From positions 1 through 26,080 of the IMG/VR virus record IMGVR_UViG_3300026209_000009: DNA of 26,080 bases; one strand, 5' to 3'. Both the position numbers and the translations under genes were made by a program. The stretch's first letter is position 1, and every line of letters begins with the position of its first letter. Below, in pieces: positions 10,262 to 26,080 of this stretch. The notes beneath the pieces were generated by a model. The model ran no database searches. It saw nothing but the letters and a program-made list of their open reading frames with translations, and was not told the DNA's origin. This DNA comes from a virus.

Positions 10262-10412
10262 TTTTGAATTCAATGAGATAATGCTATTGATATCTGCACT
10301 AGAAGCATCTCAAATATTAGGAAAAGATAGTATTATGGTCGCAAGTACTCTTACAAAATTATATAAAGCAAGGGATAAAGAAGGGCTCCCTGTTAAAGAG
10401 GGTGCTAAATAA
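10251..10412 (+). CDS. Small helical protein, second of a pair
   Basis: 53 residues: 'MRLNFEFNEIMLLISALEAS' followed by 'ILGKDSIMVASTLTKLYKAR' and a charged end. An AGGGGG at 10238-10243 lies 7 bases before the ATG. It overlaps the preceding gene by 11 bases and the next by one (TAATG). Like its neighbour it is short, helical and of similar size, so the two may be distant duplicates, but identity is not obvious by eye. No function is assigned. Confidence 0.55.
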   Translation: MRLNFEFNEIMLLISALEASQILGKDSIMVASTLTKLYKARDKEGLPVKEGAK

Positions 10413-11323
10413 TGGCTACTGTGTGGCAAAGACTTCTAACAACAGAGGATGATGCTAATTATAAGAATGATAGTATAGAAGCTGGTGATGTTCCTGCTCA
10501 CTCTACTGATAAATTAACAAGTGGGACTCTTCCTGTCTCTAGAGGAGGGACTGGTGCAACTTTTGGGTATAATAAAACTAATTGGGATACTGCCTATGGT
10601 TGGGGTAATCACGCAAGTGGTGGATATAGCACAGCAACAGGTGTTGAAAATAATGCTGATGTAACAGATGCGACAAATGTAACGGCAGCAGGTGCATTGA
10701 TGGACTCAGGGTTTGCAAGCCTATCAGATGTTAAGGCAATAAATCAAGGACTCACAACATCTTCTGTTGCTCAATTTAATAGGCTTAATCTTGTTAGTGC
10801 TGAAAATACTATGGTTCATCTGAATAGTAGTGACGCTAATTCTAATATTTATATGGAAGATAGTGTTGGAGGTGCAAGTGTCAATATAAGACAAGATGGT
10901 AATACATATTCTTTAAGAACAGGTGGTTCAGAAAGAGTAAGTACAACATCTACCGCATCTACATTTACAGGAGAAGTTAGAGCAACAAATGAAGTAACTG
11001 CTTATTATGGTTCTGATATTGCTATGAAGAAGAATCTAACTCTAATATCTAACCCTTTAGAAAAAGTACTATCTCTTAGTGGGTATGATTTTAAATGGAA
11101 AGCAAAGGTACTTAGAGATAGAGGTGGAGAAGATGGTTACTATGTTAGAGAAAAGGATGTGGGAATTATTGCTCAAGAAGTAGAAAAAGTTTGTCCTGAA
11201 ATTGTGGCTACTCGTGAAGATGGTCATAAAGCAGTTAAATATGAAAAACTTGTGCCTCTTCTTATTGAGTCTATAAAAGAATTAACTGCTAAAGTTACGA
11301 GGCTCGAAGATGGCAATAGCTAG
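10412..11323 (+). CDS. Tail fibre protein with C-terminal S74 intramolecular chaperone/peptidase
   Basis: 303 residues. It starts 'MATVWQRLLTTEDDANYKND', sharing 'MATVW-R-LT---DA' with the fibre gene at 8480. Next come 'GTLPVSRGGTGAT' and 'WDTAYGWGNHASGGYS' (residues about 57-72), recurrent fibre shaft motifs. Residues 201-303 fit the peptidase S74 chaperone domain: 'SDIAMKKNLTLISNPLEKVL', 'GYDFKWK', 'VGIIAQEVEKVCPEIV', 'KAVKYEKLVPLLIESIKEL' and a final coiled-coil helix. In this family Ser and a Lys five residues later form the self-cleavage dyad. Here they would be Ser201 and Lys206, with release of the roughly 103-residue chaperone after trimer folding. The protein is short for an S74 fibre. 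Confidence 0.88.
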   Translation: MATVWQRLLTTEDDANYKNDSIEAGDVPAHSTDKLTSGTLPVSRGGTGATFGYNKTNWDTAYGWGNHASGGYSTATGVENNADVTDATNVTAAGALMDSGFASLSDVKAINQGLTTSSVAQFNRLNLVSAENTMVHLNSSDANSNIYMEDSVGGASVNIRQDGNTYSLRTGGSERVSTTSTASTFTGEVRATNEVTAYYGSDIAMKKNLTLISNPLEKVLSLSGYDFKWKAKVLRDRGGEDGYYVREKDVGIIAQEVEKVCPEIVATREDGHKAVKYEKLVPLLIESIKELTAKVTRLEDGNS

Positions 11324-13829: not shown

Positions 13830-16034
13830 ATGCCCAAGAATTTTGTTCAATACAATCGGTATGAACGGGGCATAAATACTAGAGTTGATGATACGGATAT
13901 AGACGTTGCTGCTCTCGCAGAGTGTGACGGGTGGGATATTAACACCCCGGGCGAGATATTTACACTAGCAAATAGAGCAGATATAACGGATTTAGAGTTC
14001 AATGTAACAGACCCCGATGATTCTACAACTATTGCTCCAGTAATAAGTGGAAATAGTCAAATTGTAGTACGCTCTGATTATAGTTACGATTCCCCAGCGG
14101 AAGCACAATCTACTGGTAATACTATGTTATTCTTTGCTAATGACGATGGAGATGTAGGTTTGATAACTGATATTGAAGGCACTCCTACTTATAGTGGCAT
14201 TGTTATGGAATCTGCTTCTACTGCTGCTGTTAAACCATCGTTCTTTTGGTTTGAAGGTGCTTTAAGAATGTCTAATCCAGAGCATGATGCAACAATGAAA
14301 CCACAATGGTTTGGAATAATAGATAGAACAAGATTCAGTTCTGGCGATGATAGGAATGTTAAAGATAAAGTATGGACTCAGGAAGCATCTGCTTTAATTG
14401 CTCCTAATTCGGGTGATATAGACCAAACTAATAATGGCAATGGAGTTGTTTATGTAAATGTAACTGGTAATAAATACCCTAATACCGATGGTCATCCCCC
14501 TAATATTATATTGTCTCAATCAGTAGACTCAGAGGACGGACAATGGTCATCTACTAGCTATGAATTTGGAATGAGTTATGTATACGAGGGCAATCAAGAA
14601 AGTACTATAACGTCTATGCTTATTGAAAATGAAAGTGGGTCTCTTGTAAGTGATTATGAACTTAATTTAAGACAATATTTTACTGGCGTTAAGATTTTTG
14701 TTTCAACTGCTGATGGTGCTGATTTTCCTTTAAGACAAACTGGTTGTAGGGTTTATATAAAGAAATCTAATGGAGGCTCAAGGTGGAGATTGTTTTTAGA
14801 TGCTGATTTTAGGAGAGGTATAAGAACTAATACATTTGATAGATTTGATAATGTTTGGACTAGGGCTGGTGATGGTGCATATACCGTAACATCTGCAATA
14901 GAGATGAAAAGTCCATCAATTGAAACATATGAGGGGTTTACTGGTGTTGTTAATGATGAAGTAGCTGTATCATTTCAAGACAATGGACATGGATGGGGAG
15001 ACGCAGAAGCAGTTGGTAGAAGGGTTTTTTATTCTGGGTGTAATTACTATATAGGAGATGGAGGCACTTCGGTTGCACAACTACATGATAGAATATTCTA
15101 TAGTATGGGAGGTAAACCAGATGTAGTTCCACCTACTAATTGGATAGACTTGGGTATCAATGATGGAGATGAATTTATTGCACTAAAGAGTTTTGCAGGT
15201 CGCTTGTTGGCGTTTAAAAGAAATAAGATATATGTTATTAATGTTTCTCATCCTAGTCCAATGGGATGGGCAGTAGAACAGGAAATTGATAACAATGGAG
15301 TACTCACACAATCTGCTGTTATAGGTACAAGATATGGTATCATTTGGGCTAATTCATATGGGTGTTTTCTTTTTTCAGGAAAGCAACCTCAGGAAATATC
15401 TGGTACTATAGGTACGGCTGAATGGAAATCGTTTTTAACTGGTGATATATATATATTAGGTTTTGATACTAAGGTGAATAAATTAGTTGTTTCTACTGCT
15501 AAGTCAGATGGTAATGACACTAGTTTATCTAATACGTGGACTTACAATTTTGAACTTCAAGGATGGCAAAGACACGTAATTGACCTTAGAAATAAAACAA
15601 ATGGTTTTTATAATAAACAAGATGGTAGTTTATGTTATTTTGTACATGATGTTGCTGCTGGAAAATATCGTTCATTTAAAGTGTCTAATAACTTAGGAGG
15701 AGTTGCGTCCTATATACCTCGTAAATTCACATTAAGAGATGATACTTTAAAGATACCGGGTGTTAAGAAAAGATTTTACAGAGTATTAGTTACAATGAAG
15801 AATGAAGCATCGGCTGTTATAGCATTGTATATGAATGATACTTTAGCAGAATCAAAGAGTATAAGTTCAGCTAATGATGATTTTGTAACTAAGATATTTA
15901 CTCCATCAAGTGTTATTGAAACAGATAGTATGCAATTAGAATTTCGTAGTTCAGGCGCAGGTGGTGTTTCTATAAGTAATGTTTTATTAGAATATAGACC
16001 TAAGCGATTAAGACAAGGTGAAGAGGGTGTTTAA
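13830..16034 (+). CDS. Tail nozzle / stabilisation protein (P22 gp10 / T7 gp12-like)
   Basis: 734 residues. Predicted hub or nozzle of the short tail, a beta-propeller-containing ring below the adaptor. The most telling part, residues about 390-520, contains 'HDRIFYSMGGKPDVVPPTNW', 'GDEFIALKSFAGRLLAFKRN' and 'GVLTQSAVIGTRYGIIWANS', matching the recurring pattern of nozzle proteins (interface value, 'LKSF-GRLLAF', then 'G--S--S'). The N-terminus 'YNRYERGINTRVDD' and the C-terminal beta domain ('NVLLEYRPKRLRQGEEG') also fit. It starts immediately after the preceding stop and shares a base with the next gene. Sequence similarity to P22 gp10 itself cannot be measured here. Confidence 0.8.
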   Translation: MPKNFVQYNRYERGINTRVDDTDIDVAALAECDGWDINTPGEIFTLANRADITDLEFNVTDPDDSTTIAPVISGNSQIVVRSDYSYDSPAEAQSTGNTMLFFANDDGDVGLITDIEGTPTYSGIVMESASTAAVKPSFFWFEGALRMSNPEHDATMKPQWFGIIDRTRFSSGDDRNVKDKVWTQEASALIAPNSGDIDQTNNGNGVVYVNVTGNKYPNTDGHPPNIILSQSVDSEDGQWSSTSYEFGMSYVYEGNQESTITSMLIENESGSLVSDYELNLRQYFTGVKIFVSTADGADFPLRQTGCRVYIKKSNGGSRWRLFLDADFRRGIRTNTFDRFDNVWTRAGDGAYTVTSAIEMKSPSIETYEGFTGVVNDEVAVSFQDNGHGWGDAEAVGRRVFYSGCNYYIGDGGTSVAQLHDRIFYSMGGKPDVVPPTNWIDLGINDGDEFIALKSFAGRLLAFKRNKIYVINVSHPSPMGWAVEQEIDNNGVLTQSAVIGTRYGIIWANSYGCFLFSGKQPQEISGTIGTAEWKSFLTGDIYILGFDTKVNKLVVSTAKSDGNDTSLSNTWTYNFELQGWQRHVIDLRNKTNGFYNKQDGSLCYFVHDVAAGKYRSFKVSNNLGGVASYIPRKFTLRDDTLKIPGVKKRFYRVLVTMKNEASAVIALYMNDTLAESKSISSANDDFVTKIFTPSSVIETDSMQLEFRSSGAGGVSISNVLLEYRPKRLRQGEEGV

Positions 16035-19000
16035 TGCCTAGACATTATAAAGATGATGTAACCTTTGACCCAGTTACTGTGGATAATAGTCGCCTACCTC
16101 TTCCTATAGATAAGGTTCCACGACATTTATATGAAGGAGAAGTCCAAAGAGTTTTTGATGGTGAAAGGATTACTACTAGAGAAAGAATTGATGGGAGAGT
16201 TCATGAAACATCTACAGATAGCGATACTGCCGTAGATAAGATAACCAATATAACTATCAATGAAGATTCTTTAGGAAGTTCAAATGTAACATTTGAATTT
16301 GGTGAGAATAACATTATTTGTAGAGATGATAATGGAAACATAAGAGCAAAGTTCGGTCAAATATCCACAGGTAATAATTTTGGGTTTGCTAATTATAATT
16401 CTTCTGGTGCTACTCTTATGAATATATCTGGAAACACAGCCTCATTAGCAGGATGGATTGTGAATACGAGTTTTATTTCTAAAACAAATACTACAACAGG
16501 TCATACTCTAGGTCTATATGCAGATGATGAGCCTAGACTTCAACTAAAAGTGAATTCATCTACTCTGTTAAAAGCAGGTATGCTTAGTTCTACTAAAGCA
16601 GGTTTTGAGTTATTTAAAACAAACGGAACTTCTATATTTAAAGTCAATGAAGATGGAGCAGATATAGCTGGATGGAAATTTACTAATACAAAACTTGCAT
16701 CAGACGTAGATAGCCAAGCTAGAATAGAATTGAATTCTACTGATATGAGAATAGCGGTAATGAAGGATGACGATAGCACTCTTACTGCTATGGGTTATTT
16801 AGGAGGTCTTGTAAAGAATAATTCAATAGGGAATGAGATAACGAATGTGAGTGGCTTGTCGGATGTGTGTACGATTACAATAGGTGCAATAACTAGCGAT
16901 GAACACGCAGATGCTTTTAATCCAGGCACCCTTGTTGGTTTACAATATTATATAGCAAGCACTAATACTGGTTCTATCTCAGGGGGACTTCGTGGATTAG
17001 TGTCTGCTAATACTTATAATACCATTACTATTGCTGGTACTGGAGCATATAATGCTATAGGTCAGTCGTTTAGTATGGGCGATAAATGGTATGTTCTAAA
17101 ATTTGCTACCGATGACTATGGATTTTGGGCAAAAAAAGGCGACCAAATGAGAATTGATGGAGATGTTGAATATGATTCAGGTGATTGGCTTATACATTCA
17201 GATGGTGCTTTAAAATTCAGTACGGGTGCTGGTTTAGAAGTTATGAGATTAGGCACTCATACTGGTAAGAGAGGCTTGTTTATAGGCTCAAATCTTAATT
17301 CAGACCCCCCTCTTGCAGAATATACTGGGAGTAAAATACTTATAGGTGATGAAAGTGATGAATTTCTTAGATATACAACTGCTGGTGGACTTGAAATTTC
17401 TGGAAATATTACTGTTACAGACCCGGGTGATACATCTACAACAGCCCATGATGACTTTAAAGCAAGTGAATTAGATACTGGTGTGTGGGATATTATTGGA
17501 AATACGACACAAGTGTCTACTCCGACAGGTATTGGATTTCATGATACTAGCAATGATAGTAATTGGGACTCTGGTATCAGATGGGCAAATTCATTTCAAA
17601 GAGAACACGCTCCTTCTTTTTATTGGGATTTTGAAATTAAAACTGTTGATACTAATAATAATTCTGAAATGATTGGATGGTTTGCTAATAAAACATCGAT
17701 GGCTCATACGAATCTTATATATGGCATCTATTTATATGGCTTAGATATAATGTGGAGATATGGTACAAATGCGGGTGATTATGGCTCAACTAATGCTGAA
17801 TATATGCCATCTAATAGTTCTAGCACAGACCCATTAGTTGTTGGTGCTAAATATAGATTAGTAATACAAGTTATAACTGGAGGAGGAGCCTTTGGTTATA
17901 TATATCAAAATGGTGACTACACTACTCCATGGGATACATATATTTGGCAAACTGGTACTCAAACCGAGTTATATCTTGGCAGTATTTATTATAATGGTAC
18001 TTCTCCTAAGTGTGAACATCAAAATATGACAGGAGGCAATCTACAGCCAGCAGTATCTACACAAATTAGTGGTGGATTAATTAAAACTGGTAAAATAGAA
18101 TCTACTGATGGAAATACATTCTTTGATTTAAATAATAATATTATTCAAATGGAAGATAACTCTTCTGACACTAGATTAACTTTAGGTAATTACACAGGGA
18201 ATGACTATGCTTTAAGGATTGCACGACCCGGTATAGATTTAGATGCCAATACAGTCGCAGATGATATGATATTTAATTCTGATTGGGCTATCCCCAAAGT
18301 AAATGTATTATTTGGAGGGTCTAAAGAGAACACTGGTGGGTCTGGTTTATTAGATACTTATCATACTGATTGGGTAACTGGTTATTGCACTGCCAATAAT
18401 AATCCAGGAACATCAATGCAAGATAGTGCAAAGTCATGGACAGTTAATGAGTGGGTTGGAAGTACTGTTGTTAGGACAAATGCTGGTTATAACTCAAGCA
18501 CAGATACAATGGATACGAGTATGAGAGCCTATGGTCAAATTACATCAAATACTAGTAATGTTCTCACTCATGTTGCCTTAGAAGGTGGTTATCCCGGTTC
18601 GCAAAATAGTAGCAGTGATGGGAATGATTGGGACAATGGAGATACTTATACAATAGCACCTAAAATGTGGGGAAAATTTTCTAAATCAGATTCTTTTTAT
18701 GTCGGAACAAAAAAACTAAAAGCATCATATAGTAGTAGCAATTGGATTGAAAATTCTGAGGGGACTACAATGGCAGTATTCCCATATTTACACGACAAGG
18801 TTAATAAATTTATACGACTAAGTGCGTTTCTTTCGGCAGAAACGTCATTACGTTTAGGTATATATAGATACACTTGGAACACACATGATACTGCTAAAAA
18901 ATTACAATTAGAACTTGCAGGCGTGAGAGATAAGGGAAGATTTATGTATACTACAACTTTTATTAATGATTTAATAAAGGGTGATGCCGTATGGACTGAT

Positions 19001-19396
19001 AATGTAAATGGAACCACATTTGGACAACCAGCTTGGCACGTTTGTACTGACAGTAGTGTGGAGGCAAATGATATGGGAGTGGCTTGGCTACAGACTGATT
19101 TAAATCAAGGGAATCAAGCTAGTAATTTTGTTGAGATATATGAGAGGTTCCCTTTTATGAAAATAACGAACACAAGCAATGTTGATGGTGCATACAAAGT
19201 TGCAACAATGGATTTGACGTCTCATTTACAAAGTACTTATAAATTGAGACACGGTGATTTATATATTATTAGGCTCACGGGAGGCAGGACTAGCGATACT
19301 GAATCATCTACAGATGATAGTCATTTGGTCATACAGCCTTATGTGACTATACATGGGTATGATTTTGATGCAATTGACAATAACGATAGTACATAG
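16034..19396 (+). CDS. Large tail fibre/appendage protein with lectin-like domain
   Basis: 1120 residues. The N-terminal 80 residues are charged ('LPIDKVPRHLYEGEVQRVFD', 'RITTRERIDGRVHETSTDSD') and may attach to the nozzle encoded just upstream (TAATG junction). Residues about 90-460 carry short fibre-shaft repeats, such as 'IICRDDNGNIRAKFG', 'SLAGWIVNTSFIS' and 'DIAGWKFTNTKLAS'. Residues about 470-660 fit a ConA/LamG-like jelly-roll: 'DDFKASELDTGVWDIIGN', 'FYWDFEIKTV' and 'YRLVIQVITGGGAFGYIY'. The C-terminal 400 residues are beta-rich and unrecognised. The likely role is host receptor binding. No S74 chaperone is seen at its end. Confidence 0.75.
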   Translation: MPRHYKDDVTFDPVTVDNSRLPLPIDKVPRHLYEGEVQRVFDGERITTRERIDGRVHETSTDSDTAVDKITNITINEDSLGSSNVTFEFGENNIICRDDNGNIRAKFGQISTGNNFGFANYNSSGATLMNISGNTASLAGWIVNTSFISKTNTTTGHTLGLYADDEPRLQLKVNSSTLLKAGMLSSTKAGFELFKTNGTSIFKVNEDGADIAGWKFTNTKLASDVDSQARIELNSTDMRIAVMKDDDSTLTAMGYLGGLVKNNSIGNEITNVSGLSDVCTITIGAITSDEHADAFNPGTLVGLQYYIASTNTGSISGGLRGLVSANTYNTITIAGTGAYNAIGQSFSMGDKWYVLKFATDDYGFWAKKGDQMRIDGDVEYDSGDWLIHSDGALKFSTGAGLEVMRLGTHTGKRGLFIGSNLNSDPPLAEYTGSKILIGDESDEFLRYTTAGGLEISGNITVTDPGDTSTTAHDDFKASELDTGVWDIIGNTTQVSTPTGIGFHDTSNDSNWDSGIRWANSFQREHAPSFYWDFEIKTVDTNNNSEMIGWFANKTSMAHTNLIYGIYLYGLDIMWRYGTNAGDYGSTNAEYMPSNSSSTDPLVVGAKYRLVIQVITGGGAFGYIYQNGDYTTPWDTYIWQTGTQTELYLGSIYYNGTSPKCEHQNMTGGNLQPAVSTQISGGLIKTGKIESTDGNTFFDLNNNIIQMEDNSSDTRLTLGNYTGNDYALRIARPGIDLDANTVADDMIFNSDWAIPKVNVLFGGSKENTGGSGLLDTYHTDWVTGYCTANNNPGTSMQDSAKSWTVNEWVGSTVVRTNAGYNSSTDTMDTSMRAYGQITSNTSNVLTHVALEGGYPGSQNSSSDGNDWDNGDTYTIAPKMWGKFSKSDSFYVGTKKLKASYSSSNWIENSEGTTMAVFPYLHDKVNKFIRLSAFLSAETSLRLGIYRYTWNTHDTAKKLQLELAGVRDKGRFMYTTTFINDLIKGDAVWTDNVNGTTFGQPAWHVCTDSSVEANDMGVAWLQTDLNQGNQASNFVEIYERFPFMKITNTSNVDGAYKVATMDLTSHLQSTYKLRHGDLYIIRLTGGRTSDTESSTDDSHLVIQPYVTIHGYDFDAIDNNDST

Positions 19397-19441
19397 TGCA
19401 GAAATTTAATAAATTCAAGTTAAAAATTAATAGGATTACAA

Positions 19442-19606
19442 ATGGGTAAACAGGAAAAAAAAGAAAGCTCTAATGATGTACTCAAGAAAATAGAAGTTGC
19501 TATAGTGAATTTAAAAGAGCAACAGAGTCAAGCACAACTTACTTGGGATAAATGTCAAGGAGCAATAGAAGTTTTAAAATCATTTTTGGAAAAAGACAAT
19601 GGCTAA
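19442..19606 (+). CDS. Small coiled-coil protein
   Basis: 54 residues: 'MGKQEKKESSNDVLKKIEVA', then 'VNLKEQQSQAQLTWDKCQGA', then 'IEVLKSFLEKDNG'. Wholly helical and charged, with heptad-like Leu/Ile spacing. Short proteins ending in a 'GAIEVL' pattern are common next to phage internal-protein genes (remembered, not searched). A weak AGGA precedes the ATG. It overlaps the next gene by 8 bases, so the two are probably coupled. Function unknown. Confidence 0.6.
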   Translation: MGKQEKKESSNDVLKKIEVAIVNLKEQQSQAQLTWDKCQGAIEVLKSFLEKDNG

Positions 19607-20804
19607 TTTTAGACTTGCAAAAGACGCTCGAAAAGAACAAACTCTTATTGGAAAGAAAGTTGCCAGAGCAGCTAGTGGAATTGCTTCACAAAAAAGCGCA
19701 TCTATGTGGGGAGGCATTGGTGGTGGTTTAGCGGGCGCAGCTCTAATGGGAATAGCTGGTGTTTCTACTGTTTTAACTGGTGGAGCAGCGGCTCCATTAT
19801 GGGCAACAATGGCGGCAACTGGAGTGGGAGCGGCAGTTGGTAGTAAAGCAGGCGAAGAAGTATCTGAAAGGTTAACAACTGGTGAATGGAGTCTTAAAGG
19901 TCAGGCTGATTATGAAAAGGCAAGCTATATTGACCCTCATAAATCTAAGTTTTTTCAAGAAGAAGTAGGGCAGGCAAGAGGTGAAATTAGAAGTATGTCA
20001 GACCAAGTAGCTAAAAGCCACAAATGGACAGGGGTTAAAGCAGGTATGTTGTCTGGTGCTAGTGACATTCTTAAAGGCACGAAAATACTTGGAAAAGGTA
20101 GCGCATCAGTAGGTGAAGTTTTAAAAGCTGAGAAAGGGACATTTACATCAGCAGATGCTTTGGGAAAAGTAGCAGCAGAAAAAGCAGCTAAAGTAAAAGA
20201 AGGAAAAGAGTTTGCTAGTTTAGTAAAAGATAAAGCTTTATCTAGCAAAGAACTGGGTACAAAGAGATTAGCACATCTTGGTTTTGATAAAGCTTCTCTG
20301 GAGGCTGGCGATGATGCACTTAAGGCAGCTGCTAAAAGTTATACAGGCGCAGATAAGGCAGTTAAACAACGCTTCTTTGAAGAAGGTGCAAAGGCTGGGG
20401 GAGAAACGGATTGGAGTACATTCCTTACTGCTGAACAAACAGCTTTGGATGTAGCTAGTAAGGATGCAGGTGACTTTCTGGCTAAATCATATGCAAGCGA
20501 TATGAGTATGTATAATTCGTTGGGTTCACAACAGGGTGTTCAAAATCCAATAGTTGCTTATAAGAATATGGGTTTAAATGTTACACAAGATGCTTCAGGG
20601 AATCTTGACCCCGCTATATTTAAAGCAGAAAGTACTGTACAATTGAAACATGAGATGGGACAAGCTTATAAAAAGGGAATGTCTGTGGCTGAGGCTGAAG
20701 CAACTACAATGGCGCATTATGGCATGAAAAGAAATACATTATTAGAATCAATATTTTCTGAGAAAAAAACTGGGGAATGGAGTGAGAACTGGCTGTGGAA
20801 ATAA
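19599..20804 (+). CDS. Putative internal virion / ejection protein, Gly/Ala-rich
   Basis: 401 residues. Residues about 36-88 are a Gly/Ala-rich hydrophobic stretch ('GGIGGGLAGAALMGIAGVST' then 'ATMAATGVGAAVGSKAGEEV') that could form a membrane-inserting hairpin. The rest is Lys/Ala-rich helix ('KGTKILGKGSASVGEV', 'AAEKAAKVKEGKEFA') and ends with 'TGEWSENWLWK'. In P22 and T7 the genes after the tail hub encode proteins ejected into the host envelope, often with amphipathic or glycine-rich segments. This is inferred from position and composition, not a conserved motif. Translation is coupled to the small upstream gene. Confidence 0.6.
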   Translation: MANFRLAKDARKEQTLIGKKVARAASGIASQKSASMWGGIGGGLAGAALMGIAGVSTVLTGGAAAPLWATMAATGVGAAVGSKAGEEVSERLTTGEWSLKGQADYEKASYIDPHKSKFFQEEVGQARGEIRSMSDQVAKSHKWTGVKAGMLSGASDILKGTKILGKGSASVGEVLKAEKGTFTSADALGKVAAEKAAKVKEGKEFASLVKDKALSSKELGTKRLAHLGFDKASLEAGDDALKAAAKSYTGADKAVKQRFFEEGAKAGGETDWSTFLTAEQTALDVASKDAGDFLAKSYASDMSMYNSLGSQQGVQNPIVAYKNMGLNVTQDASGNLDPAIFKAESTVQLKHEMGQAYKKGMSVAEAEATTMAHYGMKRNTLLESIFSEKKTGEWSENWLWK

Positions 20805-20814
20805 TTAAAATTAT

Positions 20815-20820
20815 AAGGAG
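20815..20820 (+). promoter_or_regulatory. Ribosome binding site selecting ATG 20827
   Basis: AAGGAG at 20815-20820 lies 6 bases before ATG 20827 but only 3 before the in-frame GTG at 20824. The spacing favours ATG 20827. Confidence 0.6.
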
Positions 20821-20826
20821 TTTGTG

Positions 20827-22044
20827 ATGCCGTGGGAACCCGGTGACGATTATTCAGCAGGTCATGGTTCATCTGATTGGAATCCAGGTGCTAATGAATT
20901 AGCGTCTATGACACCAGATGATATTGCTAGTGGATATGGACTAGACCCAGAGGAATATGGTAGTTATTTCTCCACATTTGATGCTTGGAAGACTGATTTT
21001 GCTAAAACTGAGTATGCAGATACTGTTACTCAAATTGGAGCAGATAGTGCATTTAAGACTGATATTTATCAGAAAAATGTTGCAGGTATAGAGAGAGATA
21101 TAACTGAAGCAGGTGATGCGTTTAGTAGCACATTAGGTAAAAATATAAAAAGCATTTCCGACCAATATGCGGATTCAATGGCTACAATGATTGATGCTCA
21201 AGCAACTGGATTAGTAGGTGGTGCTACTGGTAGAAGTATGAGAACTATGGCAGCTCGAAGTGAAGAAGGCTATAGCGATGCTGCTGGGGATGCTAGTGCC
21301 GCTTTAACAAGTCAAACAGCAGACTTTACTCAACAAAAAGAATTGCTTGACCTTGAAGAAACTTTCCGTACAATGGAGGGAGGTCAAGACGATAGAGATA
21401 TAAAAAAAGCAGCAGAGGCTTTAGGCTATACTACTGAAGCAGAAAAACAGCAGTATAAGGATGAAATAGACTTAACATTAGAGGATATCGCAAATAAAGG
21501 TGGCTTTGATTTTGAAAACTATGATGCAAGTGATTGGCTATCTGAGATTACAAGTGCTGATAGCCATTGGCAACACGGTGATTTTGATAAGTATAAAAAC
21601 GATACAGGATTTCTAAAGTGGTTTTATGATAATATTGATTCTCACGATAGAGACTGGTATAGAGGAAGTGGCGAGGAGGTTAAGACCGCTTATGGACATT
21701 ACTCAGCTGGTGAAGATGCTGGGGAAGGTGATGATACTTATTGTTGCACAGCTAGTATGCGTACTGGATATATGACCCGTTGGAAAACTGCGAAACTTAA
21801 GAAGTGGCATCACAACCAATCTTCTATTTGGAGACTAGGATATGATGTTTGGGGCAAGGTTATTGCTGACCACCTTGTTGGTAAGTATGATTTTGCTGGA
21901 GAGTGTACTGAACAATTCTATCAATGGCATTGTAATGGCAAGAAATCGTTTAAGGGAGCAGTCGCTATTATATTTATAAAACCTATGTCCTATATTATAG
22001 GCACATATAAAAAGATTAAAGGATATTTAAGTGGCAAATTATAA
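20827..22044 (+). CDS. Putative internal virion protein with cysteine-bearing C-terminal domain
   Basis: 405 residues from ATG 20827. Residues 1-60 are acidic and aromatic ('MPWEPGDDYSAGHGSSDWNP'); residues about 60-290 are helical, with the small-residue segment 'DAQATGLVGGATGRSMRTMA'. All four cysteines lie in the last 100 residues: Cys306-Cys307, Cys360 and Cys369. The domain reads 'TYCCTASMRTGYMTRWKTAK', then 'IWRLGYDVWGKVIADHLVGK', and ends in 'KPMSYIIGTYKKIKGYLSG'. Its 'CC-A' start and 'GY-VW--IAD' middle recall bacterial CFI-box C-terminal domains and similar phage domains (a family parallel from memory). Membrane association or ejection with the neighbours is inferred; no catalytic role is assigned. 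Confidence 0.6.
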   Translation: MPWEPGDDYSAGHGSSDWNPGANELASMTPDDIASGYGLDPEEYGSYFSTFDAWKTDFAKTEYADTVTQIGADSAFKTDIYQKNVAGIERDITEAGDAFSSTLGKNIKSISDQYADSMATMIDAQATGLVGGATGRSMRTMAARSEEGYSDAAGDASAALTSQTADFTQQKELLDLEETFRTMEGGQDDRDIKKAAEALGYTTEAEKQQYKDEIDLTLEDIANKGGFDFENYDASDWLSEITSADSHWQHGDFDKYKNDTGFLKWFYDNIDSHDRDWYRGSGEEVKTAYGHYSAGEDAGEGDDTYCCTASMRTGYMTRWKTAKLKKWHHNQSSIWRLGYDVWGKVIADHLVGKYDFAGECTEQFYQWHCNGKKSFKGAVAIIFIKPMSYIIGTYKKIKGYLSGKL

Positions 22045-25000
22045 TAGTATGTTGAGTCAAATGCAACAGTCTAATACGTTGCAAAATACAATTCTTAACG
22101 CATTTGTTGGCAATATCATGAAAGAGATATTCCAAGATGTTGACCCAAGTATTAGATATGCTAATCAGCTTGCAAATCAAGAAACTATAGCTATGAGTCA
22201 AGCTGGACAAGTAGCTATACAATCTTTAAAAACCTTTAATACAAATTTCCCAGCATCGCTGACTGACATTAATAATAAATGGAACGACCAAGCTACATAT
22301 GATAAATATGAAAGCGTTAGCGGAGTAGATGCTGGAGGAAAGCTTATTAAGGTAGACGAACAAGACCCTCTTTATGGCGTTGTAAATATGGCTTTAATTA
22401 ATCAAGGTCATTATGATGAGTTAAGTGCTTTTCTAACGGATAACTTAGGCTCATGGGATGCAAACGCAAAAAAGGGGACTGGATTATCCGCTGGTATAAT
22501 TGAATATCGTGACCCATTGACTGGAGATTGGAAAGAGGAATATAATCCCAACGTACAAAAATTTGCACAAGCTACTCGAAGCATGATGGAAAGGATGTCA
22601 AATTCTTCTATGAAAGATTTAATGAGAGGTCAACAACAATATGTGACATCTGAAGCTTATGAAAAAATAATTAGTAATTCTCCTACTAATCTTTCATACG
22701 ATATTAATGCACCGAGGATTAAGAGTCTTATAGACGCAACTTATGATAGAACTCGTGAGTCTGACCGTATGGGTATAGATAACACCCAGTCTAGACAAGA
22801 TAAACTACTGCTAGAAGAGATGGAAAAAGCCTTAGAGGTTTATACAAAAATAGGTGAACATGATACAAAAGATGATGCTGGGATACAACTTGATGAATCG
22901 AAATACAAAAATATGACAATTAAGTTTGGTGATACAGATGATGACAAACAATTACAAGAAATATTAAGTATGGCTGGAGTTAGTGGCTCGAATATAAAAA
23001 ATATCAATGGGCAAACTGAAGTCCCAATAACTGAAGCAGCTAGAGCAATAGATTACTTTGTTGGTGCGAAAGATTTCGACAATGCGAAAATGATACTTGA
23101 TAAGTTTATAGGAGGAACTTCTGACAGGGCTACAATGTATAATTTGCGTGAGAAACTAAGAAAGGATACTGAGAATGATTATATAACTGCTTATAATGGA
23201 AGACTAGCACCTTACACCTCAGCTTTGGAACAAGGTGTGGCTACATTTGGGAAGCATATGGGTGCAATCGGATTTATTGACAAAGACGGGGCATTTGGAG
23301 TAACAATCAGCGATTTAGACCAAGATGAGGCTGCTAGATGGAAAGTTCTTAACCCAGATATTAGAGATACAATGGGTTATTTTACGTCACTTACGAGCCT
23401 ACAAAAAATGAACAGAAATAATTTCTCAACTTTTGACGAGAAAGATGTTCTTGGAAAGACGCTTTCTGGAGCGGGGACTAAATTGCTTGATACGTTCTTG
23501 CTCGCAGTTAATGGGGGTGAGAAAGAGAACCAGCAGTCTACACAAAATTGGAAAGCAGTAAAATTTGATAATAAAGATTATGTATTACATAGGACTGGTG
23601 ATAATCCAAAGCCAACAGGTCAGTATGCAGATTTAAAACAACTGGATGTTAATTCTTTAAATATAAACCAAATGATACAAGTATTGGACACTTACAACTT
23701 CGGACAGGGTCCAGATGGTGCCGTCATAGGTATTGAAGGACTAACTAATCCAAAGAATTATCCTTTTTTATCGGGGATAATGAAACTTGGCAACGTAGAG
23801 AGTGAAGCAAACAATGGGAAAAATAAAGCCCTCACAGCATTTCCTCGCCAGGGAATGGCGTATAAAGAGATTAAATCACTGGTGAAGATGGGAGATATAT
23901 ATAAATCTCTTAACCATATTTATGGTACAGTATCAGACGGAAGGCAAGCAATAAAAGCTTTGGACAAAGGCGATGCCGAGCATAATAATGCTGTATATAA
24001 TGATGAGTTTACAAACCAATATGCTGATGGAATGAAAGCGCACAATATAGGCAATGTTAGGGGTGCTAAAAATAATGAGAATAAAGCATGGTATGAATCT
24101 GATTGGGATGGCACAACAGCCCTTAATTTAACATACAATGATAAAGGCTTTATAAATGGAGGGGAAGGTTTTAATAGTGCGAAGGCAACTTGGTATCTAT
24201 TAGGACATCATGCTTATAATAATGAATATAGCATTGCAGATTTAGCCAATAAGGGAGGATGGACAGCAGACAATAAAGAGGCTTGGATAAAGAATGTATC
24301 AAGTCACTTAGGAGTAATGCCAGATTCAAAAGTAAGTACACTTGAACTCGGAGATGTTGTCAAAGCAATAGGGATAGCAGAGGGGACTCTAACTAAAGAT
24401 AGTGTAATTCCTACTCTTGAGCAGTTAGGTGGCTCAGAAGCAAAGCTTATGGCTAAAGTCCATTCCCATCCAAGTATAGATAAACCCGTTGAACCCCCAA
24501 TCGAAGGCATGGAACAGTGGCGTTTGGATAATGAAGATGCTATGAAGCAAGCAAAAAAAGTCCACAGTATACAAACAACAATAGATTTATTAGAGAACGA
24601 AATGGGTTTACCATTATCTCAGCAATTGAATGAACTCGATACTCTATTAGATGAAAAAGAAGAGGGTTGGGGAAATGCGCAGTATTTTGTTAGTGACGGC
24701 AGAGCAGAGTGGAAAGATGCAGTAAAAGCAAAAGATGATTTAGCAAAGAAATTTTATTCCGAAGCAAAACGAGGTGGCTTTGTTGGGTTTAAAGAAATGT
24801 CTATAATTGGAAGCGAAGTTGATGAAGCTGAAGAAATGATGACAGATTATAATAGAAAAGGTTCAAATAGTAAATATGATAATCCTACATTAGAAAGAAT
24901 TCTAATTGATTATAATGAAGCTAGTGCCAAAGTTGATTCAATTACGGAACCATTAAGGGCTTTGCTGAAGAAGGAAGACAAGCGTGGTGCAAACCCACGT

Positions 25001-25411
25001 TTCTTTGAAAAAGGATTACATTATCAGAATATGCCAGATAACAATATGTTTGACGATTTAGCAATGACAGAGAATGAAGTAAAAAAAGCAGGTTTTCTTT
25101 ATTCGGGTCAATCTACTATGGGAAGGACTGGAGATAAGGAGAAAATGGCTACTTCACCTGAAGAAAGAGCAAGGTGGACTTCTAGGTCGGATAAAACCAG
25201 AGATAGAATTCATGAACTTAGTAAAGACATAGCAGCAGCAGACCCAAATTCTGGTACGCCAAATTCATTTAAAAGTCGATTAGCTGCGCTCAATAACAGT
25301 TATTCAAAAGAAAGACAAGAATTAGTTGGTTTCAACTTAAAGGGCGATGAAGAAGAAGCTATTGCTCTATTAGAACTACTGACCGAGGAAGCTGCTTTAG
25401 CTGCTCGGTAA
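22031..25411 (+). CDS. Large putative internal virion / ejection protein
   Basis: 1126 residues, starting at GTG 22031. AAAGGA at 22018-22023 sits 7 bases upstream, and the next in-frame ATG (22049) would lose only six residues. It overlaps the previous gene by 14 bases. The N-terminus is helical and Gln/Asn-rich ('NSMLSQMQQSNTLQNTILNA'), and long charged helices dominate throughout. The C-terminus ends 'EEEAIALLELLTEEAALAAR'. No lysozyme, transglycosylase or protease motif could be seen. An 'HSHP' near residue 810 lacks the rest of a JAMM site. Size and position match the large internal proteins ejected by podoviruses (P22 gp16/gp20, T7 gp15/gp16 as comparisons). Function is inferred. Confidence 0.6.
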   Translation: MANYNSMLSQMQQSNTLQNTILNAFVGNIMKEIFQDVDPSIRYANQLANQETIAMSQAGQVAIQSLKTFNTNFPASLTDINNKWNDQATYDKYESVSGVDAGGKLIKVDEQDPLYGVVNMALINQGHYDELSAFLTDNLGSWDANAKKGTGLSAGIIEYRDPLTGDWKEEYNPNVQKFAQATRSMMERMSNSSMKDLMRGQQQYVTSEAYEKIISNSPTNLSYDINAPRIKSLIDATYDRTRESDRMGIDNTQSRQDKLLLEEMEKALEVYTKIGEHDTKDDAGIQLDESKYKNMTIKFGDTDDDKQLQEILSMAGVSGSNIKNINGQTEVPITEAARAIDYFVGAKDFDNAKMILDKFIGGTSDRATMYNLREKLRKDTENDYITAYNGRLAPYTSALEQGVATFGKHMGAIGFIDKDGAFGVTISDLDQDEAARWKVLNPDIRDTMGYFTSLTSLQKMNRNNFSTFDEKDVLGKTLSGAGTKLLDTFLLAVNGGEKENQQSTQNWKAVKFDNKDYVLHRTGDNPKPTGQYADLKQLDVNSLNINQMIQVLDTYNFGQGPDGAVIGIEGLTNPKNYPFLSGIMKLGNVESEANNGKNKALTAFPRQGMAYKEIKSLVKMGDIYKSLNHIYGTVSDGRQAIKALDKGDAEHNNAVYNDEFTNQYADGMKAHNIGNVRGAKNNENKAWYESDWDGTTALNLTYNDKGFINGGEGFNSAKATWYLLGHHAYNNEYSIADLANKGGWTADNKEAWIKNVSSHLGVMPDSKVSTLELGDVVKAIGIAEGTLTKDSVIPTLEQLGGSEAKLMAKVHSHPSIDKPVEPPIEGMEQWRLDNEDAMKQAKKVHSIQTTIDLLENEMGLPLSQQLNELDTLLDEKEEGWGNAQYFVSDGRAEWKDAVKAKDDLAKKFYSEAKRGGFVGFKEMSIIGSEVDEAEEMMTDYNRKGSNSKYDNPTLERILIDYNEASAKVDSITEPLRALLKKEDKRGANPRFFEKGLHYQNMPDNNMFDDLAMTENEVKKAGFLYSGQSTMGRTGDKEKMATSPEERARWTSRSDKTRDRIHELSKDIAAADPNSGTPNSFKSRLAALNNSYSKERQELVGFNLKGDEEEAIALLELLTEEAALAAR

Positions 25412-25435
25412 ACTCCTTTTACAAGGGAAGAACAT

Positions 25436-26080
25436 ATGCCATATAGTGTCTCTATAGACGAGTTCGCTGCTATGTTAAGGCAGCAATACCCAGAAATGGG
25501 TGATGGACTCTCTGACCTAGAGCTATCTCAATTATACTTTCAAAAATATCCCGACTCTAAATACCTAGAGAACATTGAAAATCCTGACTTGCTTTTTGCT
25601 ACTGCTGAAGACCCAATTGCAGAGGCAACTTCAGATGAGCCTATGGGGACTAAAGCAGCGAATTATGCAATTGCTAGACAAAATTATGCAACAGAAGGAA
25701 GCAAAGCTGCTCCAGGATTCGGTAAACAATTAGCATATAGAATGGCTGAACATATAACTAGTATACCCGGTGCCGTAGCGGGGTATGGAGGTTATATAGC
25801 GTCTGCTATGGGAGCAGAAGAGACGGGTCAGGAAATGATAGATTGGGGTGAAGATGGTGCTTTTGGTAGAGAGTGGGGAAGAGACTTTATGGAGGAGTGG
25901 GTTGAGGATGATTTAGAACTCCAAGCATTACAATTATGGCAAGAGGATGAGCCTGTTACATTTTATGAAGATGGTAAGATAGGTAATTTTGTACAAGGAG
26001 ATATGTTCGTAAGAGGAATGGCTAGTGCAATGCCTTCTCTTATTGAAATGGGGCTTACGGGTGTAGCCACAAGAGGAGCA
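25436..26080 (+). CDS. N-terminal part of a large putative internal virion protein (runs off the window)
   Basis: ATG at 25436, 24 bases after the previous stop, with AAGGGAAG just upstream. The frame stays open for 215 codons to the last base. Residues 10-45 carry a short helical motif, 'FAAMLRQQYPEMGDGLSDLE' then 'LSQLYFQKYPDSKYLE'. Two 'YP' units spaced about 20 residues apart recall 'KYP-Y-D' repeats at the start of giant phage internal proteins (remembered pattern). Two Ala/Gly-rich hydrophobic segments appear near residues 107-128 ('TSIPGAVAGYGGYIASAMGA') and 200-215. The C-terminus and any enzymatic domain lie outside the window. Confidence 0.65.
   Translation, partial: MPYSVSIDEFAAMLRQQYPEMGDGLSDLELSQLYFQKYPDSKYLENIENPDLLFATAEDPIAEATSDEPMGTKAANYAIARQNYATEGSKAAPGFGKQLAYRMAEHITSIPGAVAGYGGYIASAMGAEETGQEMIDWGEDGAFGREWGRDFMEEWVEDDLELQALQLWQEDEPVTFYEDGKIGNFVQGDMFVRGMASAMPSLIEMGLTGVATRGA

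Follow-up and report, generated by a model that had tools for sequence, protein, structure and literature searches.

Gene Neighbourhood of P0001

The window, that is, the whole stretch of 26,080 nucleotides of marine phage DNA that was analysed, encodes the protein P0001, whose residues 1-300 carry a net charge of -38 and whose C-terminal domain carries +10 (Table 1). None of NCBIfam, PHROGs and Pfam gave a match to P0001. A phmmer match to intelectin in the PDB (E 0.02-0.03) concerned another part of the protein and was judged to be a chance match.

Table 1. Features of P0001 and of the adjoining genes in the window.
Feature	Coordinates	Strand	Basis or remark
Upstream neighbour, two glycine-rich hydrophobic stretches	19599..20804	+	Synteny with L238 and L241; hydropathy
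P0001, 405 aa	20827..22044	+	Acidic N-terminal region, basic C-terminal domain
Short Gly/Asp/Glu linker, residues ~288-303	21688..21735	+	Sequence
C-terminal domain, residues 304-405, five predicted helices	21736..22041	+	AlphaFold2; 97 viral carriers
Vicinal Cys306-Cys307, helix 1 start	21742..21747	+	Kept in 25/28 non-redundant members
GYDVWGK core motif, residues 338-344, helix 3	21838..21858	+	Alignment of 35 members
Cys360	21904..21906	+	Non-conserved, 2/28 members
Cys369	21931..21933	+	Non-conserved, 1/28 members
C-terminal helix, residues 375-404	21949..22038	+	AlphaFold2; moderately hydrophobic (KD19 1.31)
Downstream neighbour, 1126 aa	22031..25411	+	Weak homology to L238:6201-9080
Giant protein, start	25436..26080	+	L241 homologue of 1657 aa with Dda-like helicase domain

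The gene order in the window (a hydrophobic glycine-rich protein, P0001, the 1126-residue protein and the giant protein) matches that of the podovirus ejection cassette, which has been described in a review (PMC8954989). Whole-length orthologues of P0001 are found at two other loci (L241:2818-4134 and L238:4954-6216), with the neighbours conserved and the domain kept. P0001 is 40% identical to them in the N-terminal part and 48-57% in the domain, which is therefore the better-conserved part. The product of the upstream gene is a candidate small membrane-inserting ejection protein, and the position of the downstream one fits a gp15-like ejection protein. The 1657-residue frame of L241 (7033-12003) matches window positions 25436-26080 with its N-terminus and contains a Dda-like helicase region (phrog_325, AAA_30); it is the giant multi-domain protein of an ejection-type cassette. 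The earlier note had described P0001 as an ejection-type protein. The gene order of the cassette, seen in the window and in the synteny with L238 and L241, agrees with this description, while homology of P0001 to a known ejection protein was not found in PHROGs or Pfam. As judged by gene order, P0001 is most likely a small ejection protein.

When viruses with related portal and capsid proteins (L085-L099) were compared with window positions 13830-26080, the ejection-region proteins were wholly different, a case of strong mosaicism. The ejection regions of these contigs being non-homologous, no orthologues could be drawn from them. In one such portal relative (L086:3-5012), a stretch of the giant protein resembles a GHKL-type ATPase by eye (DNGSGM). 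Elsewhere in the window (10412-11323), a C-terminal region resembles, also by eye, the peptidase S74 intramolecular chaperone domain.

The C-Terminal Domain

The only cysteines of P0001 are at positions 306, 307, 360 and 369, all in the last 100 residues, and the motifs quoted earlier follow each other in the order 'TYCCTA', 'GYDVWGKVIADHLVG', 'AVAIIFIKPMSYIIGTYKK'. The naive chance of all four cysteines lying within the last 100 residues is about 0.004; conservation is stronger evidence than this placement that the domain is real. The three of the 28 members without the vicinal pair constitute the CRP-1 subfamily, whose single cysteine precedes that position by two alignment columns. What the members have in common is a cysteine close to where helix 1 starts, seen also in the bacterial CFI-box and in the phage family X considered below. 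Cys360 and Cys369 are private to P0001 or nearly so. Since these two are not conserved, the four-cysteine pattern is partly coincidence in a domain that is itself real, and the metal-binding or disulphide module of four cysteines put forward in the earlier note is unlikely; a four-cysteine metal site was rejected on the counts of two and one member.

Residues ~304-405 form a discrete domain that was uncatalogued before: Pfam, NCBIfam and PHROGs do not contain it. Searches of IMG/VR with P0001 as single query, with a two-sequence alignment or with the neighbouring 1126-residue protein gave no relatives; these were found with a DNA motif. In tblastn against 50,697 phage records, the sole match, a weak one, was the C-terminus of Roseobacter phage CRP-1 gp49 (32%, E 2e-3), and two other family members used as queries against annotated phages yielded almost nothing further. 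Alignment of P0001 with CRP-1 gp49 provided a conserved W.xGYxV.GK core, which was back-translated and run on IMG/VR. The DNA motif for W[RS]xGYxVxGK occurred at 44 loci, all 44 being members by hmmsearch, and a looser motif gave 101 loci, only a few of them chance matches. The scan of about 85,000 prokaryote species genomes, in which members without the exact motif escape detection, produced 23 matches, none convincing and all judged to be chance. Within these sequence searches, the domain of P0001 residues 304-405 proved virus-specific.

The claim that a distinct domain ends P0001 and that similar ones end other phage proteins is borne out by 97 viral carriers. The domain forms the C-terminal end in every one of them, followed by no more than 17 residues, and the N-terminal parts belong to about ten distinct groups, including DUF4815 proteins. 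Low-complexity linkers lie upstream of the domain in other carriers (mean G+S over 30 residues of 31%). Three subfamilies can be distinguished (THCCTAA..., [YW]CC[ST]xM... and CYVATAL...), with mutual hhalign values of 95-100%. W327, W335, G338, Y339, V341, G343, K344 and A347 are invariant in the 35 aligned members, and the domain carries a positive net charge (+2 to +15) in 28/28 members. The P0001 C-terminus itself matches the family HMM, carries the invariant W..GYxV.GK core and is C-terminal in position. No paper on a mobile phage C-terminal domain was found in the literature.

The five-helix fold of the domain is predicted with confidence by AlphaFold2 from 35 members (pLDDT 89.7, pTM 0.81), with helices at 5-12, 17-28, 32-50, 54-68 and 74-103 in construct numbering. 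The search of the PDB with this model gave no fold match. The best match in BFVD was a 715-residue protein, which by its length would be CRP-1 gp49, followed by A0A516LWU8, A0A6M5C7S3 and S4S2E0; the last has 762 residues and by that length would be the HMO-2011 protein of the gene slot described in the next section. The Kyte-Doolittle value of the last helix over 19 residues (1.31; family median 1.42) is below the usual transmembrane threshold, and a classical transmembrane anchor is unsupported by this hydropathy.

Family X and Tail Exchange

Another group of phage protein ends, family X, was found via a short degenerate motif modelled on the ends of phage proteins. Its consensus is CCFI[MF]LEARYG...RRGYYK.AEV.VPLMRKS, it comprises at least 120 IMG/VR loci (L288-L407), and in the libraries searched no named family reached a score above the cut-off. 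A LysM domain is present in one carrier (L317:2-2716). Comparison of X with the CFI-box gave hhalign values of 70-84% over about 70 columns, and none of 60 shuffles was as good; by these profiles, X is CFI-box kin. The helices of the X model (5-10, 16-28, 31-50, 52-73 and 81-98) follow the order predicted for the P0001 domain. The two models have BFVD matches in common, namely A0A516LWU8 (prob 1.00 and 1.00), S4S2E0 (0.96 and 0.97) and A0A6J5KZP5. Searches of annotated phages by tblastn with family X or with the tail of phage ctYwJ313 revealed almost nothing further.

The gene that lies between portal and coat in HMO-2011-type podoviruses encodes homologous proteins with an RDDI..LSEGEFV core. 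In CRP-1 the tail of this protein is the P0001-type domain; CRP-13 and CRP-345 have X, and ctYwJ313 has a certified CFI-box (52.1 bits, cut-off 40). HMO-2011 has another tail, whose GYHYWAIPMVPVMRKNK stretch weakly matches X, and eight other HMO-2011-type phages have none of these tails in the slot. The SEGEFV core is present in about half of the IMG/VR carriers of the P0001 domain, across all three subfamilies, and in 23 of the 120 X carriers. Comparison of these sequences shows the P0001-type domain to be exchangeable with the X, CFI-box and HMO-2011 tails on one core protein. Because the tails are exchanged on one core, an equivalent role is argued for them, and the alternation of the P0001-type domain with the CFI-box in one phage gene suggests a common docking job.

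Relation to the CFI-Box

The CFI-box model NF041770 (curated cut-off 40 bits) did not match P0001 at E<=1 or E<=10; the positive controls L172, L168 and ctYwJ313 scored above the cut-off. P0001 begins its domain with TYCCTA and has no CFIATA or C[FY][IV]ATA-type motif; the CRP-1 subfamily has CYVATA. The earlier note had likened the order of motifs to the CFI-box. Profile-profile comparison did not bear out membership: hhalign against the CFI-box (18 sequences) or X was non-significant, at 0.03-1.4% with all members and at best 15% with the CRP-1 subfamily. By these profiles, the P0001 domain is not a CFI-box member. What stands of the resemblance comes from the kinship of X with the CFI-box, the fold matches held in common with X and the same gene slot. 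Profile alignment of the window subfamily with the CFI-box was equalled by 0/60 shuffles, and in the best register without gaps cysteine lies against cysteine; alignment with X was weaker (2/60 shuffles as good). The P0001 domain probably belongs to the CFI-box superfamily as a distant branch.

CFI-box carriers seen in the analysis have PDZ, TPR or adhesin-like parts, and CFI-box kin are present in bacterial proteins that have no virion. Among phage records, the box occurs in ctYwJ313 (L286:2412-5396, above the NF041770 cut-off) and in Clostridioides phage pCD1602_4 (L287:1501-1719, tblastn 2e-10). The literature search found no paper dealing with the CFI-box and no description of its function.

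Proposed Function and Alternatives

We tentatively regard the P0001 domain as a virus-specific, swappable C-terminal tail that docks at the host envelope and is probably distant CFI-box kin. On this reading, the basic and partly hydrophobic bundle of helices, free to move on its flexible linker, would attach to a target that many infections have in common: most likely the envelope of the host cell, the anionic membrane surface of that envelope or a conserved partner located there. Each carrier's N-terminal part would meanwhile perform its own job. In P0001, the tail would keep the ejected protein at the host envelope. The cysteine conserved where helix 1 begins would be a feature common to the P0001-type domain and the CFI-box superfamily. 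We infer both the docking and its partner; the host envelope is favoured on account of the basic charge of the domain, the moderate hydrophobicity of its last helix, the LysM domain of an X carrier and the PDZ, TPR or adhesin-like parts of CFI-box carriers. The P0001 domain may dock to a membrane, but its last helix is only moderately hydrophobic. Carriers of the DUF4815 type are probably parts of tails or fibres and not ejected proteins, and a single envelope role for all carriers is therefore a guess. No experiment on any carrier of the domain, and no virion proteomics, was found in the literature.

The main rival to envelope docking is docking to a virion component. The tail would then attach its carrier to a conserved part such as the portal, coat or core for packaging or positioning, and tail swaps would track changes in that part. 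Many carriers are indeed encoded within blocks of structural genes, the slot of the HMO-2011 type is flanked by portal and coat, and a C-terminal position suits a packaging tag. We consider this unlikely: the domain is found on very different phages (podovirus-like ones and those with DUF4815 proteins) with differing portals and coats, and CFI-box kin include the bacterial proteins mentioned above. The positive charge of every member would also suit a tail that offsets the acidity of its carrier (-38) and attaches to packaged DNA or to lipopolysaccharide; this is distinctly improbable, as the PDB search gave no DNA-binding fold and conservation is strongest at Trp, Gly and Tyr, with one invariant Lys. 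Slightly more improbable is a folding or oligomerisation tail, an intramolecular chaperone of long fibre-like carriers, for which the C-terminal position, the low-complexity linkers and the long structural DUF4815 carriers speak. P0001 and many other carriers are not fibre-like, and a single chain is predicted to be compact with five helices. Least credible is a thiol module in which the cysteines bind metal or form disulphides: the vicinal pair is widely kept, but it alone makes a poor metal site, the CRP-1 subfamily has one nearby cysteine instead of a pair, and Cys360 and Cys369 are not conserved.

As to origin, the P0001 domain and the CFI-box and X tails might be unrelated short helical tails that converged on the same niche, as the non-significant hhalign values between them would allow. 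Convergence is rather doubtful, given that the top fold matches are common to both, helix order and lengths agree, the N-terminal cysteine is present and the gene slot is the same. Envelope docking by probable distant CFI-box kin is the reading tentatively favoured here. A broader and slightly less probable reading is that aquatic phages carry interchangeable helical C-terminal docking tails (P0001-type, X, CFI-box and HMO-2011) which descend from one superfamily that bacterial envelope proteins also use, and which do one job. If so, a phage could change its docking partner by a tail swap and keep the rest of the protein.

Through the analysis, an unannotated phage protein end becomes a defined family of about a hundred carriers, for which a fold is predicted, and tail swaps at a single gene slot tie this family to the CFI-box. 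As the cultured phages CRP-1, CRP-13, CRP-345 and HMO-2011 bear different tails on the same protein, tail function is directly testable.

Comparison with Known Systems

The podovirus ejection proteins (T7 gp14/gp15/gp16) resemble the window in their order, from a small membrane-type protein through a medium to a giant one, but PHROGs and Pfam reveal no sequence similarity to them in the window. CRP-1 gp49 (QBQ72458.1) is the only annotated phage protein with a significant match to the P0001 domain, and its C-terminal domain is a true family member by HMM (4.7e-29). It differs from P0001 in belonging to the CYVATA subfamily, with one cysteine and an insertion, and in its unrelated N-terminal core.

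Family X shares with the P0001 domain the CC start, the GY in helix 3, five similarly ordered helices, a linker and the C-terminal position, whereas the sequence profiles are not significantly similar and X is nearer to the CFI-box (hhalign 84%). Unlike CFI_box_CTERM, the P0001 domain has no NF041770 match, no CFIATA motif and no significant hhalign score. Both have in common the C-terminal position, the starting cysteine, L[RK]x[WF][RH], GY/YY and the hydrophobic end, all in the same order, and in phage ctYwJ313 CFI_box_CTERM occupies the equivalent gene slot.
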